From NCBI RefSeq assembly GCF_900090295.1, contig NZ_LT607753.1:5766001-5830000 (forward strand): 64,000 nt of DNA, written 5' to 3'. Each line of letters opens with the position of its first letter. Position 1 is the stretch's first letter. The notes below the pieces were generated by a model. That model worked only from the letters and a program-made list of their open reading frames with translations. It had not been told where the DNA came from and did not search any database. This document shows positions 2,395 to 64,000 of the stretch, piece after piece. This DNA comes from Micromonospora coxensis (GTDB lineage Bacteria > Actinomycetota > Actinomycetes > Mycobacteriales > Micromonosporaceae). Position numbers and translations under genes: made by a program.

Positions 2395-3931
2395 CCGACG
2401 GCCCGGGACCGCCGCGCCGCCGACACCCGGGAGCCCCGCGCCGACCTCCGGCAGCCCGGCGCGGCCTACGCCCGGGCCGCCGCCGCTGCCGGTCTGGCCG
2501 CTGACGGTCATGTTCGCGCTGGTGCCGCTCTGGTGGGCGCTGGGCGCGTTCTACCTCGGCTGGTCGGTGTTCGGCGTCGTCCTGCTCGCCCTGCTGGTCA
2601 CCCGGGGCCGGGTGCCGCTGCCCGCCGGCGCCGCCTGCTGGCTGGTCTTCCTCGTCGTGGTGCTGCTCAGCGCCACCCGGCTGGACCGGGTCACCGCGTA
2701 CTTCACCTTCGGGCTGCGCTACGGCTTCCTGGTGACCGCCCTGGTGGTCTGCGTGTACGTCCACACCCTCGTCCGGGAGGGCACCTCCTGGGAGCGGGTG
2801 CTGCGCCCGCTCGGCTGGTACTGGCTGGGCATCGTGGCGCTGGGCTGGCTGGCCGTGCTGGCGCCGACCTTCGCGCTGACCACGCCGGTGGAGCTGGCGC
2901 TGCCGGGCGGCATCGCCGGTGAGCGGTACATCCAGGCGCTGACCCACGTGCGCGCCAACGAGTTCAACCCGGTGTCCCGTACGCCGATCTACCGCACCGC
3001 CGCGCCGTACCCGTACACCAACAACTGGGGCACCGCGTACGCGCTGCTGGTGCCGTGCGTGCTGGCGTACCTGACCTCGGTGCGCACCGGGCGGTTCCGG
3101 GTGGCGCTGTGGGTGTCGCTGCCGCTGTCGGTGGTGCCGGCGTTCATGACGCTCAACCGGGGCATGTTCCTCGGCCTCGGCGCCGGCCTGCTCTACCTCG
3201 GCCTGCGGGCGCTGGTGCGCGGCAACGCCCGGCTGATCGTCTCGATCGCCGGCCTGGTGGTGCTGGTCTGGATCGTCAGCCTGGTCGTCCCGGTACAGGA
3301 GATGATCAACGCGCGGGTCAGCACCACCGACACCAACGTCGACCGGATGGACCTGTACCTGCGCACCTGGCAGGCGGTGGAGCGCTCGCCGCTGCTCGGC
3401 TACGGCGCGCCGAAGAGCGTCGACACCACCCTGGCCGAGGAGCCGCTGGGCACCCAGGGGCTGATCTGGCAGATCCTCTACAGCCACGGCATCCCGGCGC
3501 TGGTGCTCTTCCTGTCCTGGCTGGTCCTGGTGGCCCGGCGGCTGGCCGCCGCGGTCTCGCCGGCCGGGCACTGGCTGAGCACCGTCCCGGTGATCGCGCT
3601 GGTGGTGATCCCCGTCTACGCCTACATCGACCCGAACCTGTCGGTGATCTTCTTCGCCGTCGGGGCCGGGCTCGCCGCGGTCAGCGGGCCGGTCAACCGG
3701 GCCTCGCTCGGCCCGTCCAGCATGTCCCGGCCGGCGCCGCTGACGCCGTGGCGTACCCGGGGCTTCGGCCGGGCCGCCGTGCCGCAGGGCCCGGACGCCC
3801 CGGCAGGGGCGACCGGGGTCGCGGCCGTGCCGCTGCGCACCGCCGACCCGGCCCCGGCGGACCGTCCGCCGACCGGGTCCGCGCCGCAGCCGCCGGTGGG
3901 TCAGCGGCCGGGAACGGGACGGCCGGCATGA
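2387..3931 (+). CDS. Wzy-like O-antigen ligase/polymerase membrane protein
   Basis: A 514-residue integral membrane protein with roughly ten or more hydrophobic segments and one long hydrophilic loop around residues 180-220 that contains a Tyr/Asn-rich stretch (YPYTNNWG). This is the layout of the Wzy/WaaL family, whose members join lipid-linked repeat units into a polymer or transfer them to an acceptor on the outer face of the membrane. Function is inferred from topology plus its place between a glycosyltransferase and a Wzx-like flippase; sequence conservation in this family is low. The first ~25 residues and the last ~75 are Pro/Ala-rich and likely disordered. GTG start at 2387 overlaps the upstream stop, and the stop overlaps the next ATG (ATGA). 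Confidence 0.75.
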   Translation: MSDRRPGTAAPPTPGSPAPTSGSPARPTPGPPPLPVWPLTVMFALVPLWWALGAFYLGWSVFGVVLLALLVTRGRVPLPAGAACWLVFLVVVLLSATRLDRVTAYFTFGLRYGFLVTALVVCVYVHTLVREGTSWERVLRPLGWYWLGIVALGWLAVLAPTFALTTPVELALPGGIAGERYIQALTHVRANEFNPVSRTPIYRTAAPYPYTNNWGTAYALLVPCVLAYLTSVRTGRFRVALWVSLPLSVVPAFMTLNRGMFLGLGAGLLYLGLRALVRGNARLIVSIAGLVVLVWIVSLVVPVQEMINARVSTTDTNVDRMDLYLRTWQAVERSPLLGYGAPKSVDTTLAEEPLGTQGLIWQILYSHGIPALVLFLSWLVLVARRLAAAVSPAGHWLSTVPVIALVVIPVYAYIDPNLSVIFFAVGAGLAAVSGPVNRASLGPSSMSRPAPLTPWRTRGFGRAAVPQGPDAPAGATGVAAVPLRTADPAPADRPPTGSAPQPPVGQRPGTGRPA

Positions 3932-5475
3932 CCGACCCGGGTACGCGGGCCACCGCCGTCACCGCCACGCCGGAGTCCGGCGAGCGGGAGGTACGGCGCG
4001 GCACGCGCAACGGCATGGTCGGGCTGGCCGGCGCGGCCGTCAACGGCCTGCTCGGCTTCGCCCTGACCGTGGTGATCGTCCGGGGTCTCGGCCCGGCGGG
4101 CTCCGGCGCGATGTTCACCGCCATCGGCGTGGTGGCCATCATGGGCGTGCTCTGCTGCGCGGGCGCGGACACCGCGCTGGTCTGGGCGCTGCCCCGGCGT
4201 ACCCCCGGCCGGCACGGGGACGCCGCCCGGCTGCTGCCGGTGGCGCTGGCGCCGACGCTGCTGCTCACCGTGGCGGTGGCCGGGGCCGGTGTGGCCGCCG
4301 CCGGGGCGCTCGCGCCGGTGCTGTTCGACCCGGGCGCCACCGAGGGTCCGGGCCTGCTCCGGCTGGCCTTCGCCGGCCTGCCGTTCGTGGTGGCGATGAC
4401 CGTGCTGCTCGCCGCCGTCCGGGCGGTCCGTCCGGTCGCCGCCCTGGTCGCCGTGCAGTACGTCCTGGTGCCGGCGGCCCGCCCCGCGCTGGTGCTGGCC
4501 GCGCTGGCCGCCGGGGCGGGGGTGACCGTCGCCTTCGCCGGCTGGCTCGCCCCGGTGGCGCTGGCCGTGCTGGTCTGCGCGGCGCTGCTGGTGCGTCCGC
4601 TCGCGCTGACCTCCGGGGCGACGCTGCGGCCGGTGCGCGAGGACTGGCGGACGCTGTGGGGCTTCGCCCTGCCCCGGGCCGCGTCGGCGACCATCGACGC
4701 CAGCAGCATGTGGCTGACCGTGCTGCTCACCGCCGCCCTGGCCGACCAGGCCGAGGCCGGCGTCATCGGCGCCGTCGGCCGGTACGCGCTGGCCGGGCTG
4801 CTGATCATGCAGGGCCTGCGGGTGGCCGTCGCGCCGCAGTTGTCCCGCCTGCTCGGGCAGGGGCGCACCGCCGAGGCGGCGGCGGTGTACCGGCGGATCA
4901 CCGCCTGGATCATCGCGCTGTCCTGGCCCGGGTACCTGCTGCTGGCCGTCTTCGCCCCGGGATTCCTGCGGCTGTTCGGCGCGGAGTTCACCACCGGCGC
5001 CACCGCGATGGTCGTGCTCGCCGGGGCCATGCTGGTCAACTCCGGCACCGGCATCGTGCAGACGCTGCTGCTGATGAGCGGCAGCAGCGGCCGGCACCTG
5101 GTCGCCGCCGCCACCGGGCTGCTGCTCAACGTCGGGCTCGCGGTGGTGCTGATCCCGCCGCACGGCGCGCTCGGCGCGGCCCTGGCCTGGACCGTCGGCA
5201 TCGTGGTGGAGAACGTGCTCGCCACCCTCGCCGCCCGCCGGGTGGTCGGCGAGCCGCTGCTCACCCGGGCGGTGCTGGCGGCCGCGCTGGCCGCCGCCAC
5301 GGCCACCGCCGTCCTGGCCGGCGCGGGCGCGGCGGTCGCCGGCCGCGGGGTGGCCGGGCTGTTCCTCACCCTCGGGGTGGCGGTGCTGCTCGCCGGCGCG
5401 CTGCTGCTGCACCCCGGGGTACGCCGACGGGTGCGGGCGACGGCGCCCACCCTGCTGGGCCGGGGGCCGCGATGA
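3928..5475 (+). CDS. Wzx-like lipid-linked oligosaccharide flippase (MOP superfamily)
   Basis: A 515-residue polytopic membrane protein of the MATE/MOP superfamily, with about 12-14 hydrophobic segments and short polar loops. It begins with a ~30-residue polar tail, then GMVGLAGAAVNGLLGF, a first helix typical of polysaccharide flippases. It should move the undecaprenyl-linked repeat unit across the membrane to the Wzy-like protein encoded just upstream. The ATG at 3928 overlaps the upstream stop as ATGA; a longer reading of the frame back to 3055 would run inside the upstream gene and is rejected. The stop is followed by a strong ribosome binding site for the sulfotransferase. Confidence 0.8.
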   Translation: MTDPGTRATAVTATPESGEREVRRGTRNGMVGLAGAAVNGLLGFALTVVIVRGLGPAGSGAMFTAIGVVAIMGVLCCAGADTALVWALPRRTPGRHGDAARLLPVALAPTLLLTVAVAGAGVAAAGALAPVLFDPGATEGPGLLRLAFAGLPFVVAMTVLLAAVRAVRPVAALVAVQYVLVPAARPALVLAALAAGAGVTVAFAGWLAPVALAVLVCAALLVRPLALTSGATLRPVREDWRTLWGFALPRAASATIDASSMWLTVLLTAALADQAEAGVIGAVGRYALAGLLIMQGLRVAVAPQLSRLLGQGRTAEAAAVYRRITAWIIALSWPGYLLLAVFAPGFLRLFGAEFTTGATAMVVLAGAMLVNSGTGIVQTLLLMSGSSGRHLVAAATGLLLNVGLAVVLIPPHGALGAALAWTVGIVVENVLATLAARRVVGEPLLTRAVLAAALAAATATAVLAGAGAAVAGRGVAGLFLTLGVAVLLAGALLLHPGVRRRVRATAPTLLGRGPR

Positions 5476-59846: not shown

Positions 59847-60314
59847 GTGCCGCTCCTCGGCTGGCTGGCGGTGGCCGGCGCGCTCGCGTCGGTCGCCGTC
59901 GGGCTGTTCTGGGCGCGTCGGCGCCTGCTGCTGGTCGCGGTGGTGGGCCGGAGCATGGAGCCGACGCTGCGCGCCGGCGACCGGGTGCTGGCCCGCCGGG
60001 TGCCGTTGGCCCGGGTACGCCCCGGCGATCTGGTCGTGGTCCGCGCCCCGGCGGCGATGACGGCCGGCCGGCCGGTCCTGCCGGGCGAGGGCCCGGGGCT
60101 GCTCATCAAACGGGCGCACGCGGTGCCGGGCGACCCGGTGCCGGTGCAGCGGGTGCCGTTGCTGCGCCGCCACGGCGAGGCGGTCGTCCCGGCGGACCGG
60201 CTGGTCGTGCTGGGCGACAACCCGCCGTTCAGCTACGACTCCCGCGAGTGCGGCTACATCCCGGGCGGGGACCTGCTCGGCGTGGTGGTCCGGCCCCGCC
60301 GGGTCGCGCGCTGA
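59847..60314 (+). CDS. S26-family signal peptidase
   Basis: A 155-residue type I signal peptidase-like protein with one N-terminal membrane helix (residues 4-22) and a short extracytoplasmic catalytic domain. The nucleophile Ser lies in GRSMEPTLRAGDRV (about 34-47), the general-base Lys in LLIKRAHAVPGDPV (about 85-98), and the box E segment is VLGDNPPFSYDSRECGYIP (about 124-142). It starts 3 bp after pheT with no Shine-Dalgarno, yet is not a normal pheT partner. Neighbouring genes for a Cys-rich peptide, redox proteins and an exporter suggest it removes that peptide's leader. Confidence 0.88.
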   Translation: MPLLGWLAVAGALASVAVGLFWARRRLLLVAVVGRSMEPTLRAGDRVLARRVPLARVRPGDLVVVRAPAAMTAGRPVLPGEGPGLLIKRAHAVPGDPVPVQRVPLLRRHGEAVVPADRLVVLGDNPPFSYDSRECGYIPGGDLLGVVVRPRRVAR

Positions 60315-60319
60315 CCGAG

Positions 60320-60353
60320 GGCGTGCCGCGCGGACGCAGCCGCGCGGCACGCC
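60320..60353. terminator. Bidirectional terminator between signal peptidase and peptide gene
   Basis: A perfect 14-bp inverted repeat (GGCGTGCCGCGCGG and complement) with a 6-nt loop lies between the convergent signal peptidase and Cys-rich peptide genes. Confidence 0.75.
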
Positions 60354-60363
60354 GGAGCCGGCC

Positions 60364-60579
60364 TCAGCAGAGGCTGGTCATCGTGGTCGCGCCCGCGCTG
60401 CAGTAGTACCCGCAGGACCCGCAGCTCGTCTTGCACGTCGGCGTGATGTAGCACCGCTTGAAGTAGCAGGTGCCGCACAACGCGCACCACGGGTCCGGCG
60501 GACAGCCGGCCGCGGCCGTCACCTTCGGCACGAACACGCCGAGCATCCGCTCGCCCAGGCTCTCGAGTCGACGAAACAT
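60364..60579 (-). CDS. Small Cys-rich precursor peptide (71 aa, 10 Cys)
   Basis: The ATG at 60579 has a near-perfect GGAGGAGGTG ribosome site (60585-60594), so this is a translated gene, although the frame stays open further upstream. Residues 1-25 form a Cys-free leader (FRRLESLGERMLGVFVPKVTAAAG), amphipathic and ending in a small-residue run suited to S26 cleavage. Residues 26-71 hold all ten Cys at 26, 32, 35, 38, 43, 49, 53, 56, 60 and 71, mixed with Pro, Gly, Tyr and Thr. An even count suggests five disulfides; CxxC pairs (CALCGTC, CGSC) also permit metal binding. Divergent from mauE-tlpA-ABC. A -10-like TAGCGT lies at 60612-60617 on this strand. I recognise no named family. Confidence 0.8.
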   Translation of the reverse strand: MFRRLESLGERMLGVFVPKVTAAAGCPPDPWCALCGTCYFKRCYITPTCKTSCGSCGYYCSAGATTMTSLC

Positions 60580-60657
60580 TCGTTCACCTCCTCCCGTCAT
60601 TCGGTGCCCGGACGCTACGGCCGGCGCGCACACCGGCCCGTACAGTCGGCCGCCGCG

Positions 60658-60675
60658 CGATGTACGTCCGATGTA
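60658..60675 (+). promoter_or_regulatory. SARP-type direct heptamer repeat at the mauE promoter
   Basis: CGATGTA occurs at 60658-60664 and again at 60669-60675, an 11-bp period with a 4-bp spacer. It overlaps the expected -35 position of the -10 at 60687-60692. SARP regulators bind heptamer direct repeats with this spacing just upstream of -10 elements. Confidence 0.6.
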
Positions 60676-60686
60676 TCCGCCACCCC

Positions 60687-60692
60687 TAGCGT
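60687..60692 (+). promoter_or_regulatory. Candidate -10 of the mauE-tlpA-ABC operon
   Basis: TAGCGT lies about 31 nt upstream of the mauE start, with GAGGAGG (60709-60715) in the predicted leader. The -35 position (about 60664-60669) has no TTGACA-like sequence, consistent with activator dependence. Confidence 0.5.
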
Positions 60693-60723
60693 GGGCCTCC
60701 CGATCCGCGAGGAGGCGTACCGG

Positions 60724-61278
60724 ATGCGACACCTGGAGCTGACCGCCCGCCTGCTGCTGGCGCTGGTCTTCCTCGCGGCGGTCGTCGGCAAGCTGCGCAC
60801 CCGGTCCGACTTCGCCGACTTCGTCGCCACGGTGGGCCGCTTCGGCGTGCCGGCGCGGTGGACCCGCCCGGTCGGCGCGACGGCGGTGGCCGCGGAGGCG
60901 GCGGTGGTCGTCCTGCTCGTCACGCCGGGCGCCGCACCGGCCGGGCTGGTGCTCGCCGTCGTCCTGCTCGCGGCGCTCACCGCCGCGCTGGTGGCCACGC
61001 TGCGCCGCGGCGAGCGGCCGGCCTGCCGCTGCTTCGGCGCCGGTGACACCCCGATCGGCCGGCGGCACGTGCTGCGCAACCTGGCGCTCGGCGCGGTCGC
61101 GCTGCTCGGGCTGGCCGCCGCCCTCACCGCCGACGGCGGGCCACCCCCGGCGGCGGCGGTCCTGCTCGCCGCCGGAGTGGCGCTGCCACTGGCCGCCGTG
61201 GTGATCCGCCTCGACGACCTCGTCGCCCTCTTCGCCTCCGCGCCGACCCGGCCGACCCGCCCGGCCGGCCGCCCCTGA
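60724..61278 (+). CDS. MauE/DoxX-type redox-associated membrane protein
   Basis: A 184-residue protein with about four to five hydrophobic segments: LTARLLLALVFLAAVVGKLR (6-25), then about 50-66, 68-90, 116-135 and 140-160. The conserved MauE signature RPACRCFGAGD (about 97-107) places a Cys-x-Cys next to the membrane. In methylamine dehydrogenase systems MauE works with MauD for disulfide formation in the small subunit. The ATG at 60724 follows GAGGAGG by 8 nt. First gene of a three-gene operon, divergent from the Cys-rich peptide gene, which is the natural candidate substrate. Confidence 0.85.
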   Translation: MRHLELTARLLLALVFLAAVVGKLRTRSDFADFVATVGRFGVPARWTRPVGATAVAAEAAVVVLLVTPGAAPAGLVLAVVLLAALTAALVATLRRGERPACRCFGAGDTPIGRRHVLRNLALGAVALLGLAAALTADGGPPPAAAVLLAAGVALPLAAVVIRLDDLVALFASAPTRPTRPAGRP

Positions 61279-61305
61279 CCTGCACCCCTACCGAAGGAGC
61301 CGTCC

Positions 61306-61845
61306 ATGGCGCTGCTGACCGCCGCCGTCGTCCTCGTCGCCGCTCTCGGCCTGCTCAACCTGGTGCTGCTGCTCGGCGTGATCCGCCGGTTGCGGGAGCA
61401 CACCGAGCTGCTCAGCGAGCGGCAGTCCGCGCCTCCCGAGGTGATGCTGGAGGTCGGGTCGATCCCCGGCGACTTCGTCTCCACCACGGTGGACGGCCGG
61501 GTCCGCGCCCGCGCCGACATCCCGCCGATGACCCTGGTGGCGTTCCTCTCCCCGGGCTGCGACCACTGCGAGGAGCAGTTGCCGGAGCTGGAGCAGCGGG
61601 CCGCGGAGATGCCCGGCGGCCCGGAGCACGTCTGGGTCGTCGTGGTCGGCAAGGGCCCCGAGACCCAGGAGTACGCCGACCGGTTCGCCGCACTGGCCAC
61701 GGTCTTCGTCGAACCGGGCACCGGCCCGCTGCCGAAGGCGTTCGCGATCAAGGGCTTCCCCGCCTTCGGCCTGCTGGACCAGCACGGGGTCGTGGCCTCC
61801 ACCGCGTTCGGCCTGGCCCGCCTCGACCTGCCGGTGGCGCGGTGA
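61306..61845 (+). CDS. Membrane-anchored thioredoxin-fold protein (TlpA/MauD-like)
   Basis: A 179-residue protein with an N-terminal membrane anchor (LTAAVVLVAALGLLNLVLLL, 3-22) and an extracytoplasmic thioredoxin domain (about 48-175). The active site is SPGCDHCEEQ, a CDHC pair at about 85-88; the cis-Pro loop is IKGFPAFGLLD (about 146-156). It is the expected partner of the MauE protein encoded 27 bp upstream, passing electrons from, or oxidising, cysteines in secreted substrates. GAAGGAG precedes ATG 61306. The stop overlaps the ABC transporter start (GTGA). Confidence 0.87.
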   Translation: MALLTAAVVLVAALGLLNLVLLLGVIRRLREHTELLSERQSAPPEVMLEVGSIPGDFVSTTVDGRVRARADIPPMTLVAFLSPGCDHCEEQLPELEQRAAEMPGGPEHVWVVVVGKGPETQEYADRFAALATVFVEPGTGPLPKAFAIKGFPAFGLLDQHGVVASTAFGLARLDLPVAR

Positions 61846-63686
61846 CCGCACCGCGCCTCACCGCCCGTCGGGCCGCCCGGCACGCCCGGGTGGCCCTCGG
61901 GCTCACCTGGCGGGCCGCGCCCGTGGGCACCGGCGTCGACCTGCTGCTCGCCGTCCTGGCCGGGGCCACGCCGGTGGCGGTGGCCGGGTTGACCAAGCTC
62001 GTCCTGGACCGGCTCACCGGCCGGGGTGGCCCGGCCGTGCCGGTGGCGGCGCTCGGGGTGGGGCTGGCCGTCGCCGCCGCCGTCGCGGCGGTCCTGCCGC
62101 ACCTGCGCCGCTACGTCGAGGACGAACGCCGCCGGGCCGTCACCCGCCTGGTCCGCCGACGCCTGCACGAGGCGGTGTCCCGCCTGGTGGGGCTGGTCCG
62201 GTTGGAGGACCCGCTCTTCCAGGACCGGTTGCAGGCCGCGCAACAGACCGGGCACCTCGGGCCGACCCAGCTCACCGGCAACACGCTCGGCGCGGTGCAG
62301 AGCGTCATCGCGATCGCCGGCTTCCTCGGCGTGCTGCTGGCCCTGAGCCCGGTCATCGGGCTGCTCGTGCTGGTGGCGGCGCTGCCGACGCTCGGGATGC
62401 AGCTGCGCCTCAACCGGGCCCGGATGGCGATGGTGCTGCGCCTGGAGCACTTCCAGCGGCGCGACCTGTTCTTCGCCCACCTGCTGACCGGGGTGCCGGC
62501 CGCCAAGGAGGTGCGCCTGTTCGGCCTCGGCCGGTTCTTCGGCGACCGGATGCTCGACGAGCTGCACGGCATGCACCGGGTGGAGCGCGGGCTGGACCGC
62601 CGGGAGATGCGGGCGCAGGCGCTGCTGGGCCTGCTCGGCGCGGGGGTGGCGGGCGTCGGCGTGGTGTGGACCGTCAACGCGGCCGCCAGCGGACGGCTCA
62701 GCCTGGGCGACGTCGCCGTCTACCTGGCGGCCGTGCCGGGCGTGCAGGGCGCGCTGGGCGCCCTGGTCGGCCAGGTCGGCGCCATCCACCAGGCGCTGCT
62801 GCTCTTCGACCACTACGACCAGGTGGTCCGCGCCGAGCCCGACCTGCCGGTGCCGGCTGCGCCCCGCCCGGTGCCACCACTGCGGCGCGGGATCGAGCTG
62901 CGGGACGTCTGGTTCCGGTACTCGCCGGAGCACCCCTGGGTGCTGCGCGGGGTCGACCTGTGGCTGCCGCACGGCGCCACCACGGCGCTGGTCGGCCTCA
63001 ACGGCGCCGGAAAGAGCACCCTGGTCAAGCTGCTGTGCCGGTTCTACGACCCGGAGCGCGGTGCGATCCTCTGGGACGGTGTGGACCTGCGCGAGTTCGA
63101 CCCACAGGCGTTGCGGGAGCGGCTCGGCGCGGTGTTCCAGGACTTCGTGCCGTACGACCTCACCGCCGGCGAGAACATCGCCGTCGGTGACCTGTCGGCG
63201 CTCGGGGACGCCGACCGGCTGCGGCAGGCCGCCCGGCACGCCGGCGTCGACGACACCCTGACCGCCCTGCCGCGCGGCTACGACACCCTGCTGACCCGGG
63301 TCTTCTTCGACGGACCGGACCGTGACGACCCGCAGGCCGGGGTGGTCCTCTCCGGCGGCCAGTGGCAGCGGGTCGCGCTGGCCCGGGGGTTCCTGCGGGC
63401 CGAGGTGGACCTGCTCGTCCTGGACGAACCGAGTTCGGGCCTCGACGCCGAGGCCGAGCACGACCTGCACACCCGGCTGCGCCGGCTGCGGCGGGGCCGG
63501 ACCAGCCTGCTCATCTCGCACCGGCTCAACGCCGTGCGCGAGGCGGACCTCATCGTGGTGCTCGCCGACGGCCGGGTGACCGAGCGCGGCGACCACCAGC
63601 AGCTGCTCGCCGCCGCCGGTGACTACGCCCGGTTGTTCACCCTCCAGGCGCACGGCTACCGGGAGGACACCCCGGCGCCGGTGTGA
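61842..63686 (+). CDS. ABC exporter (fused membrane and ATP-binding domains)
   Basis: A 614-residue half-size exporter. Residues 1-330 form the membrane domain, with about five to six hydrophobic segments. The ATPase domain (about 345-595) has Walker A GLNGAGKST (about 386-394), Q-loop AVFQDFVPYDLTAGEN, signature LSGGQWQRVALARG (about 503-516), Walker B LLVLDEPSSGLD (about 524-535) and H-loop SHR. There is no N-terminal C39 peptidase, so a leader would need a separate protease such as the nearby S26 enzyme. Similar exporters occur in RiPP clusters. GTG start overlaps the thioredoxin-like gene. Confidence 0.88.
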   Translation: MTAPRLTARRAARHARVALGLTWRAAPVGTGVDLLLAVLAGATPVAVAGLTKLVLDRLTGRGGPAVPVAALGVGLAVAAAVAAVLPHLRRYVEDERRRAVTRLVRRRLHEAVSRLVGLVRLEDPLFQDRLQAAQQTGHLGPTQLTGNTLGAVQSVIAIAGFLGVLLALSPVIGLLVLVAALPTLGMQLRLNRARMAMVLRLEHFQRRDLFFAHLLTGVPAAKEVRLFGLGRFFGDRMLDELHGMHRVERGLDRREMRAQALLGLLGAGVAGVGVVWTVNAAASGRLSLGDVAVYLAAVPGVQGALGALVGQVGAIHQALLLFDHYDQVVRAEPDLPVPAAPRPVPPLRRGIELRDVWFRYSPEHPWVLRGVDLWLPHGATTALVGLNGAGKSTLVKLLCRFYDPERGAILWDGVDLREFDPQALRERLGAVFQDFVPYDLTAGENIAVGDLSALGDADRLRQAARHAGVDDTLTALPRGYDTLLTRVFFDGPDRDDPQAGVVLSGGQWQRVALARGFLRAEVDLLVLDEPSSGLDAEAEHDLHTRLRRLRRGRTSLLISHRLNAVREADLIVVLADGRVTERGDHQQLLAAAGDYARLFTLQAHGYREDTPAPV

Positions 63687-63729
63687 CCGCGCGTCGCCGG
63701 GTCGCGGTCGCTGTCGTGCCGGTCACCGG

Positions 63730-64000
63730 TCAGCTCGCGGTCGCCTCGGCGCCGGCCCCGGTGGCGGCTCCGGCGCTCGCCTCGGTGGCGGCCAGCTCGG
63801 CGGCGTAGAGCCGGACCAGCTCGCCGAGGCGGAAGTGGCCCCGCCCGACGGGCTCGGCGAGTTGCGCCGCCACCAGCCGGTCCAGCGCCCAAGCCGCCTC
63901 CTCGCGCGGCACACCGGTCAGCGCGGCCACCTGGTCGGCGGTGACCGGTCCCGGGCGGGCCCGGCCGAGCAGCCGGAAGACCACGGCCGCCGAGCCGAGC
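63730..64000 (-). CDS. AfsR/SARP-like regulator, C-terminal part (5' beyond window)
   Basis: The last 89 codons of a gene that enters from beyond the window on the minus strand. The segment VFRLLGRARPGPVTADQVAA is followed by a winged-helix end, AWALDRLVAAQLAEPVGRGH and FRLGELVRLYAAELAATE, the pattern found after the NB-ARC ATPase in AfsR-type regulators, then an Ala/Gly tail. Whether a SARP/BTAD DNA-binding domain exists upstream cannot be seen. It is convergent with the ABC exporter (43 bp apart). The direct repeats at the mauE promoter are of the type such regulators bind. Confidence 0.7.
   Translation of the reverse strand, partial: LGSAAVVFRLLGRARPGPVTADQVAALTGVPREEAAWALDRLVAAQLAEPVGRGHFRLGELVRLYAAELAATEASAGAATGAGAEATAS

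Follow-up and report, generated by a model that had tools for sequence, protein, structure and literature searches.

A compact gene cassette for a cysteine-rich peptide lies at the end of a 64,000-nucleotide stretch of Micromonospora coxensis (contig NZ_LT607753.1, positions 5,766,001 to 5,830,000; hereafter the window). A 71-residue precursor is encoded there among genes for an S26-family peptidase, a MauE-family membrane protein, a single-span anchored thioredoxin-fold protein (TRX), an ATP-binding cassette (ABC) exporter and a SARP/AfsR-like regulator. We propose, with a probability of about 0.5, that these genes make a leader-dependent, disulfide-rich secreted peptide, akin to bacteriocins or to ribosomally synthesized and post-translationally modified peptides (RiPPs), whose maturation would take place on the cytoplasmic side of the membrane, prior to export. 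In a more specific form, which we hold tentatively and a little short of even odds, a flipped MauE-thioredoxin pair would install the disulfides on the cytoplasmic side throughout a large actinomycete family, possibly passing electrons to the quinone pool, and an inward-facing or soluble S26 peptidase would trim the peptide ahead of ABC export.

The cassette follows pheT, in the order pheT, S26, peptide, MauE, TRX, ABC, SARP. The initial annotation of this region had listed the same six products, giving no strand for the peptide, and every item was found. Coordinates below refer to the window.

59847-60314, plus strand: S26-family leader peptidase, recognised by Pfam and NCBIfam, by its coming and going with the peptide at pheT and by its charge pattern relative to LepB; predicted catalytic Ser in SMEPT and Lys in IKRAHAVPGD; no basic residues before the hydrophobic segment and ARRR immediately after it
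60364-60579, minus strand: precursor peptide gene, 71 amino acids, 10 cysteines
60508-60579, minus strand: precursor leader, residues 1-24, MFRRLESLGERMLGVFVPKVTAAA, with A-x-A at its end
60364-60507, minus strand: variable precursor core, residues 25-71 (10 cysteines), and stop codon
60612-60617, minus strand: TAGCGT, -10-like element of the peptide gene, from the alignment of orthologous loci
60661-60675, plus strand: TGTA-N7-TGTA direct repeat (11-bp period), candidate SARP-binding site
60687-60692, plus strand: TAGCGT, -10-like element of the MauE-TRX-ABC operon, 8 bp past the second heptamer, from SARP-promoter geometry (PMC10936776)
60724-61278, plus strand: MauE-family membrane protein, motif PACRCFG (PF07291, E 5e-24)
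61024-61038, within the MauE gene: CRCFG, in a positively charged loop preceding the fourth long helix pair
61306-61845, plus strand: TRX, from alignment and from profile matches to ResA/StoA/TlpA-type structures
61558-61569, plus strand: CDHC of TRX; a conserved RLREHTELL lies directly past the membrane segment
61842-63686, plus strand: ABC exporter, membrane domain and ATPase in one chain (Pfam ABC_tran)
63730-64000, minus strand: C-terminal part of the SARP/AfsR-like regulator

The cassette comes and goes as a unit at pheT. The peptide was matched in 16 of 101 genomes (100 relatives plus the window's own), nine of which hold a close orthologue with 76-100% identity. The gene order given above was kept in all eight orthologous loci that could be read at length (the nine less G016, on a short contig), and the named relatives with this arrangement are Micromonospora. 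Seven more divergent stretches (L027-L033), with peptides of 35-49% identity over the matched part, retained S26, MauE, TRX and ABC in differing orders and places, and two weak peptide matches had none of the four nearby. When the pheT loci of the window's own genome and 29 relatives were compared, S26, peptide and MauE were all present in 6/30 and all absent in the other 24; L148 and L164 are clean empty sites, where pheT directly joins the genes that flank the far side of the cassette in the window's genome. Consistent with this patchy, unit-like distribution, one related cassette (L080) is carried on AP026074.1, which is titled plasmid SNP1 of Streptomyces nigrescens. The window's genome also has a second cassette elsewhere (L146, G000:C1:2655000-2671000), with two precursor frames at about 3559-3777 (plus strand) and 3863-4075 (minus strand) containing 9 and 11 cysteines; these odd-numbered precursors might pair with each other or retain a free thiol.

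To delimit the wider family, a TRX alignment was searched over a collection of 84,980 species, one genome per species. The best 80 of the 131 confirmed stretches come from 19 named genera and one bin placed to family only, all of them actinomycetes. In a sample of the class comprising 394 genomes, 31, the window's own among them, gave a TRX match at E<=1e-10, the weakest of these matches covering the thioredoxin domain only. Scanned over the loci from which it had been built, a leader profile detected a precursor in 81 of 89 (72/80 from the TRX search and 9/9 others). One further precursor (L043) was seen in a scan for cysteine-rich open reading frames (ORFs), and two loci lacking a match (L038 and L089) are cut by contig ends. 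The initial annotation had proposed checking whether peptide, MauE, TRX, S26 and ABC genes co-occur in actinobacteria. They do: in the 69 loci whose sequence extends 5 kb or more to either side of TRX (full loci), the precursor was present in 64, ABC in 68, S26 in 62, MauE in 55 and SARP in 31. S26 tracks the precursor (both in 61 full loci, S26 alone in 1, precursor alone in 3, neither in 4; Fisher p 1.9e-4), and its catalytic motifs are kept, SMxP in 68/69 and the K-R motif in 69/69 cassette peptidases. Together with the behaviour at pheT, this bears out the earlier suggestion that these genes belong together as a single cassette centred on a cysteine-rich precursor. With gene calling incomplete, the families recurring within 8 kb were ABC (74 loci), TRX (42), S26 (36), MauE (34) and SARP (33), every other family appearing in at most 9 loci; no lanthipeptide, YcaO or radical-SAM enzyme was recurrent there, no search having been aimed at them.

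Some loci depart from the full set. Three from Pseudonocardia (L054, L060 and L070) have TRX, MauE and ABC but neither S26 nor a precursor that could be recognised, and may be a side branch serving another substrate. In L066 the precursor, MauE, TRX and S26 are present and no ABC exporter was matched nearby. Two further stretches (G117:C1:5624614-5626579 and G456:C1:3325763-3327699) each hold two TRX-like genes near one another, with MauE between them in G117, possibly a related redox relay.

All ten cysteines of the 71-residue precursor fall within residues 26-71, the last 46 of the chain. Several lines of evidence indicate that it is a real gene: over nine orthologues third-position changes dominate and the ratio of nonsynonymous to synonymous rates (dN/dS) is about 0.29 (leader 0.11, core 0.33); and a strong ribosome-binding site, GGAGGAGG, lies upstream. 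High-G+C DNA does yield many spurious cysteine-rich frames, which form the background of the ORF scan. Over this background, small ORFs with at least 6 cysteines are concentrated close upstream of TRX across 80 related loci: 70 lie in the bin from -1500 to -500, compared with 7-11 in each of nine further-upstream bins and 3-25 per downstream bin, many of the downstream ones being other frames of the exporter gene. That the precursor is such a spurious frame, next to housekeeping genes with which it has nothing to do, is excluded by its dN/dS and ribosome-binding site, by the spread of the leader profile and by the all-or-none pattern at pheT. Searches of protein databases gave 13 relatives at E<=0.01 and, with a profile, 48 at E<=0.001, labelled, where labels are present, as hypothetical or uncharacterised proteins. 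The window's peptide had no Pfam or NCBIfam match at E<=1, and among 24 diverse precursors each model in these libraries matched at most one, the best being lantibiotic models (E 0.0096 and 0.021).

The precursors share a leader and differ in their cores. In the 24 diverse precursors, which were hand-picked, identity averaged 0.44 in the leader versus 0.11 at non-cysteine core positions, and A22 and A24 were invariant (24/24), the residue between them being free. Within the expected region, A-x-A was found in 90 of 92 precursors; it is of the type preferred by S26 enzymes. Cysteine is nearly confined to the cores (764 in 3,871 residues), the one leader cysteine in 2,200 residues being due to a start codon placed too far 5'. 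Of 58 nonredundant cores, 51 have an even number of cysteines (p 1.2e-9, optimistic owing to the kinship of the cores), which fits disulfides, as expected with paired cysteines. The odd cores are four with 7 cysteines (two in L031 and single ones in L059 and L062), the pair of L146 and one in L045; the two of L031 are encoded in tandem and would fit interchain disulfides. Cut after A24, the window's peptide is predicted to be a 47-residue product of monoisotopic mass 4973.0 reduced and 4962.9 with five disulfides. The leaders look too weakly hydrophobic for Sec (maximum 15-residue mean hydropathy, median 1.04; no Sec leaders compared). Conserved leader, variable core and clustered modifying, protease and export genes are the genetic marks of a RiPP, TRX and MauE being the presumed modifying proteins.

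The membrane side on which this maturation would occur is suggested by charge patterns, which in S26, TRX and MauE are all inverted relative to LepB, DsbA-like proteins and generic MauE. The loop with the CxC of MauE has a mean net charge of +4.63 in 27 cassette sequences versus -1.94 in 31 generic ones, and the N-terminus 0.04 versus +2.19. The membrane segment of TRX is flanked by -0.01 and then +1.52, the C-terminal flank being the more positive in 76/79; the corresponding values for 31 control DsbA-like proteins are +4.00 and then +1.00. Between the membrane segment and the catalytic serine, cassette S26 enzymes average +2.60 (at least +1 in 59/60) and LepB -0.13 (at least +1 in 2/30); in LepB the N-terminal flank is the more positive in 24/30. 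By the measure used, no hydrophobic anchor was shown in 9 of 69 cassette S26 enzymes. The generic control comprised 31 MauE loci, every one of which (31/31) has a DsbA-like gene within the 3-kb stretch that holds MauE: a third MauE of the window's own genome (L194, G000:C1, near 4812642), beside a DsbA-like anchored protein whose N-terminus is basic, and 30/30 further loci. From these inversions S26, TRX and the CxC of MauE are predicted to face the cytoplasm and to act before export. The initial annotation had the set make, oxidise, export and trim a peptide; the cassette itself stands, but predicted cytoplasmic maturation makes its export-then-trim order doubtful, since trimming and cysteine chemistry probably precede export. 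A natural MauE-TRX fusion in a single frame (P0015, L061:9473-10492) adjoins an ABC exporter in a locus where S26 and precursor were not found; in this fusion the CxC loop and thioredoxin domain seem to lie on the same side of the membrane.

The chemical steps that we infer would run as follows. Expression of the peptide gene and of the MauE-TRX-ABC operon would be activated by SARP, and the conserved leader would offer the cysteine-rich core to the maturation proteins. TRX would oxidise or shuffle the thiols of the core and be re-oxidised by the CxC of MauE, S26 would cut off the leader after A-x-A, and the ABC exporter would then send the mature peptide out, so that all maturation steps would be completed at the cytoplasmic membrane face. 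Lasso peptides, which are finished inside the cell and then exported, offer an analogy. Antagonism is the most likely role that we infer for the product.

Other arrangements of the same proteins have to be weighed. In the classical order, the ABC exporter would release a reduced precursor, and MauE and TRX would oxidise it and S26 trim it outside, much as Dsb proteins and LepB do. Disulfides usually form in the oxidising exterior, MauE and MauD act in the periplasm during maturation of methylamine dehydrogenase, and charge patterns of the outward type are seen in housekeeping LepB and in the DsbA-like proteins that partner generic MauE; yet all three cassette proteins carry the opposite pattern and some of the S26 enzymes show no anchor, so that we consider this order unlikely, if the most credible of the alternatives. 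Inward-facing TRX and MauE could instead keep the precursor thiols reduced and the chain unfolded for the exporter, with disulfides arising spontaneously outside. The predicted cytoplasmic face of both proteins would suit such a reducing role, as would the absence of MauE from some clusters and the fact that CGPC is the commonest single TRX motif (9 of 80). Against it stand CEHC (6), CDHC (2) and many further motifs, as well as the coupling of generic relatives of MauE to DsbA-like proteins; moreover, a dedicated reductase would hardly be needed in a reduced cytoplasm. We regard this possibility as improbable. A cysteine-rich metal-binding product, metallothionein-like or a copper RiPP, whose thiols the redox proteins would merely guard, could explain the cysteine-dense cores and a match of the window's MauE to the HvfX copper-RiPP maturation family. 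That match, at 16 bits, is far under the cut-off of 80, and the strong bias to even cysteine numbers, the dedicated export and the removal of a leader all argue against metal binding, which seems very improbable.

Several observations nonetheless weigh against a disulfide-rich peptide matured before export. MauE, which the initial annotation had included in the set, was undetected in 14 of 69 full loci and is not obligatory. Loci that keep the partners without the peptide, which it had named as speaking against the proposal, occur in a minority: no precursor was found in 5/69, namely L054, L060, L070 and L061, where S26 is also absent, and L074, where it is present. TRX motifs vary widely, CRPC and CAPC occurring besides CGPC, CDHC and others, so that either an oxidase or a reductase role would be compatible with this variation and with the loci that lack MauE. 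Seven of 58 cores are odd in cysteine, including both second-cassette precursors of this genome, and the precursors of L029 and L081 have no A-x-A, with Val at the first position. The predicted structure of the peptide is poor (predicted local distance difference test score, pLDDT, 55). The N-terminal flank of S26 gives a weaker sign, being less positive than the C-terminal one in 24/30 enzymes with a short unambiguous N-terminus and in 45/68 overall; charge rules are heuristic, the flank windows differed among protein sets, and p values overstate independence because the tested sequences are related. The cytoplasm is, besides, normally reducing. Finally, a recurrent immunity gene was not found among the neighbours, for which gene calling was incomplete, and this weakens a bacteriocin role.

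Regulation by SARP is suggested by the region between peptide and MauE, which holds the sole TGTA-N7-TGTA match in the window, with TAGCGT beginning 26 nt from the repeat start on the MauE side. Ten of the 11 orthologous intergenic regions contain a repeat in the MauE direction, and in nine of these ten a -10-like hexamer follows at an offset of 26 nt; in the peptide direction a repeat occurs in 8 of 11, always with the 26-nt offset (8/8), and is absent from the window's own copy. SARP sites are described as direct repeats spaced 11 bp, the 3' repeat lying 8 bp from the -10 element (PMC10936776), a geometry that the repeat and hexamer share and from which SARP binding is predicted. The TGTA form of the promoter is local, as outside pheT-type loci only three precursors (L046, L058 and L111) have the repeat upstream.

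Profile searches agree with the gene assignments. The window's S26 matched Peptidase_S26 (Pfam, E 4.7e-18) and TIGR02227 (68.1 bits, cut-off 47), and MauE scored 85.5 bits against PF07291 (gathering cut-off 27); Pfam thioredoxin matches to TRX were sub-threshold only. As initially annotated, the exporter lacks a C39 domain, the ABC protein of the window giving no Peptidase_C39 match in Pfam at E<=10. The whole SARP has 623 amino acids with BTAD and NB-ARC domains, most of it beyond the window. No MauD model was among the NCBIfam matches at E<=10, the presence of such a model in the library not having been checked. PF06433, the methylamine dehydrogenase large subunit, had no match in this genome, and control genomes were equally without a match, so its absence is not shown.

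A candidate group that had been flagged and left undescribed thus becomes a family defined by leader, core rule, gene set and, in one branch, promoter, which can be mined across actinomycetes. The cassette would be a natural, modular route to peptides with three to five disulfides. As a rule, S26 peptidases and dedicated disulfide machinery work outside the cytoplasm; an inward topology, if it holds, would make the cassette an exception to that rule and a simple system for testing it, a counterpart of the Dsb and signal peptidase systems turned inside out.

Among known systems, MauE and MauD mature the small subunit of methylamine dehydrogenase (cited in PMC7794033), and the cassette resembles them in joining a MauE member to an anchored thioredoxin-fold protein for what would be a multi-disulfide substrate; it differs in that its substrate is a small leader-bearing peptide and its topology is predicted to be inverted. 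Generic actinobacterial MauE proteins are of the same Pfam family and also have a thiol-redox partner gene nearby, but carry CGCFG (25/31, the motif not being found in 6) instead of the CRCFG of cassette MauE (22/27), with opposite charges. Sublancin-type glycocin clusters encode a C39 exporter, a glycosyltransferase and thiol-disulfide oxidoreductases. The cassette would likewise combine a small exported disulfide peptide with thiol-disulfide oxidoreductases, whereas S26 replaces C39 and a glycosyltransferase was not recurrent among the incompletely called neighbours. Lasso peptides are exported by McjD-type ABC proteins without C39, and the cassette exporter, also without C39, would similarly export a peptide finished in the cytoplasm; here the product would have disulfides and no lasso, and lasso enzymes were not recurrent among the same incompletely called neighbours.

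The closest precedent is decRiPPter (Kloosterman et al., 2020, PMC7794033), which reported candidate RiPPs from Streptomyces in three families that contain mauE and have precursors with 8 or more cysteines. One of these families also has mauD, and a role in precursor modification was suggested; the strict filter of decRiPPter additionally required transporter, peptidase and regulator genes. The general idea of mauE with cysteine-rich RiPP precursors is therefore already in print. The paper names S. viridosporus T7A, and one of our related loci (L113) is from S. viridosporus NRRL 2414; it is likely, though unproven, that the decRiPPter mauE families are identical with the family described here. 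In the main text of that paper the terms 'S26' and 'thioredoxin' have 0 occurrences, and we found in it no shared leader, cysteine parity, promoter or topology and no characterised product of its families; in the literature searched we found no characterised product of such cassettes. Set beside decRiPPter, the family definition, the cysteine parity, the promoter and the inverted topology appear to be additions.

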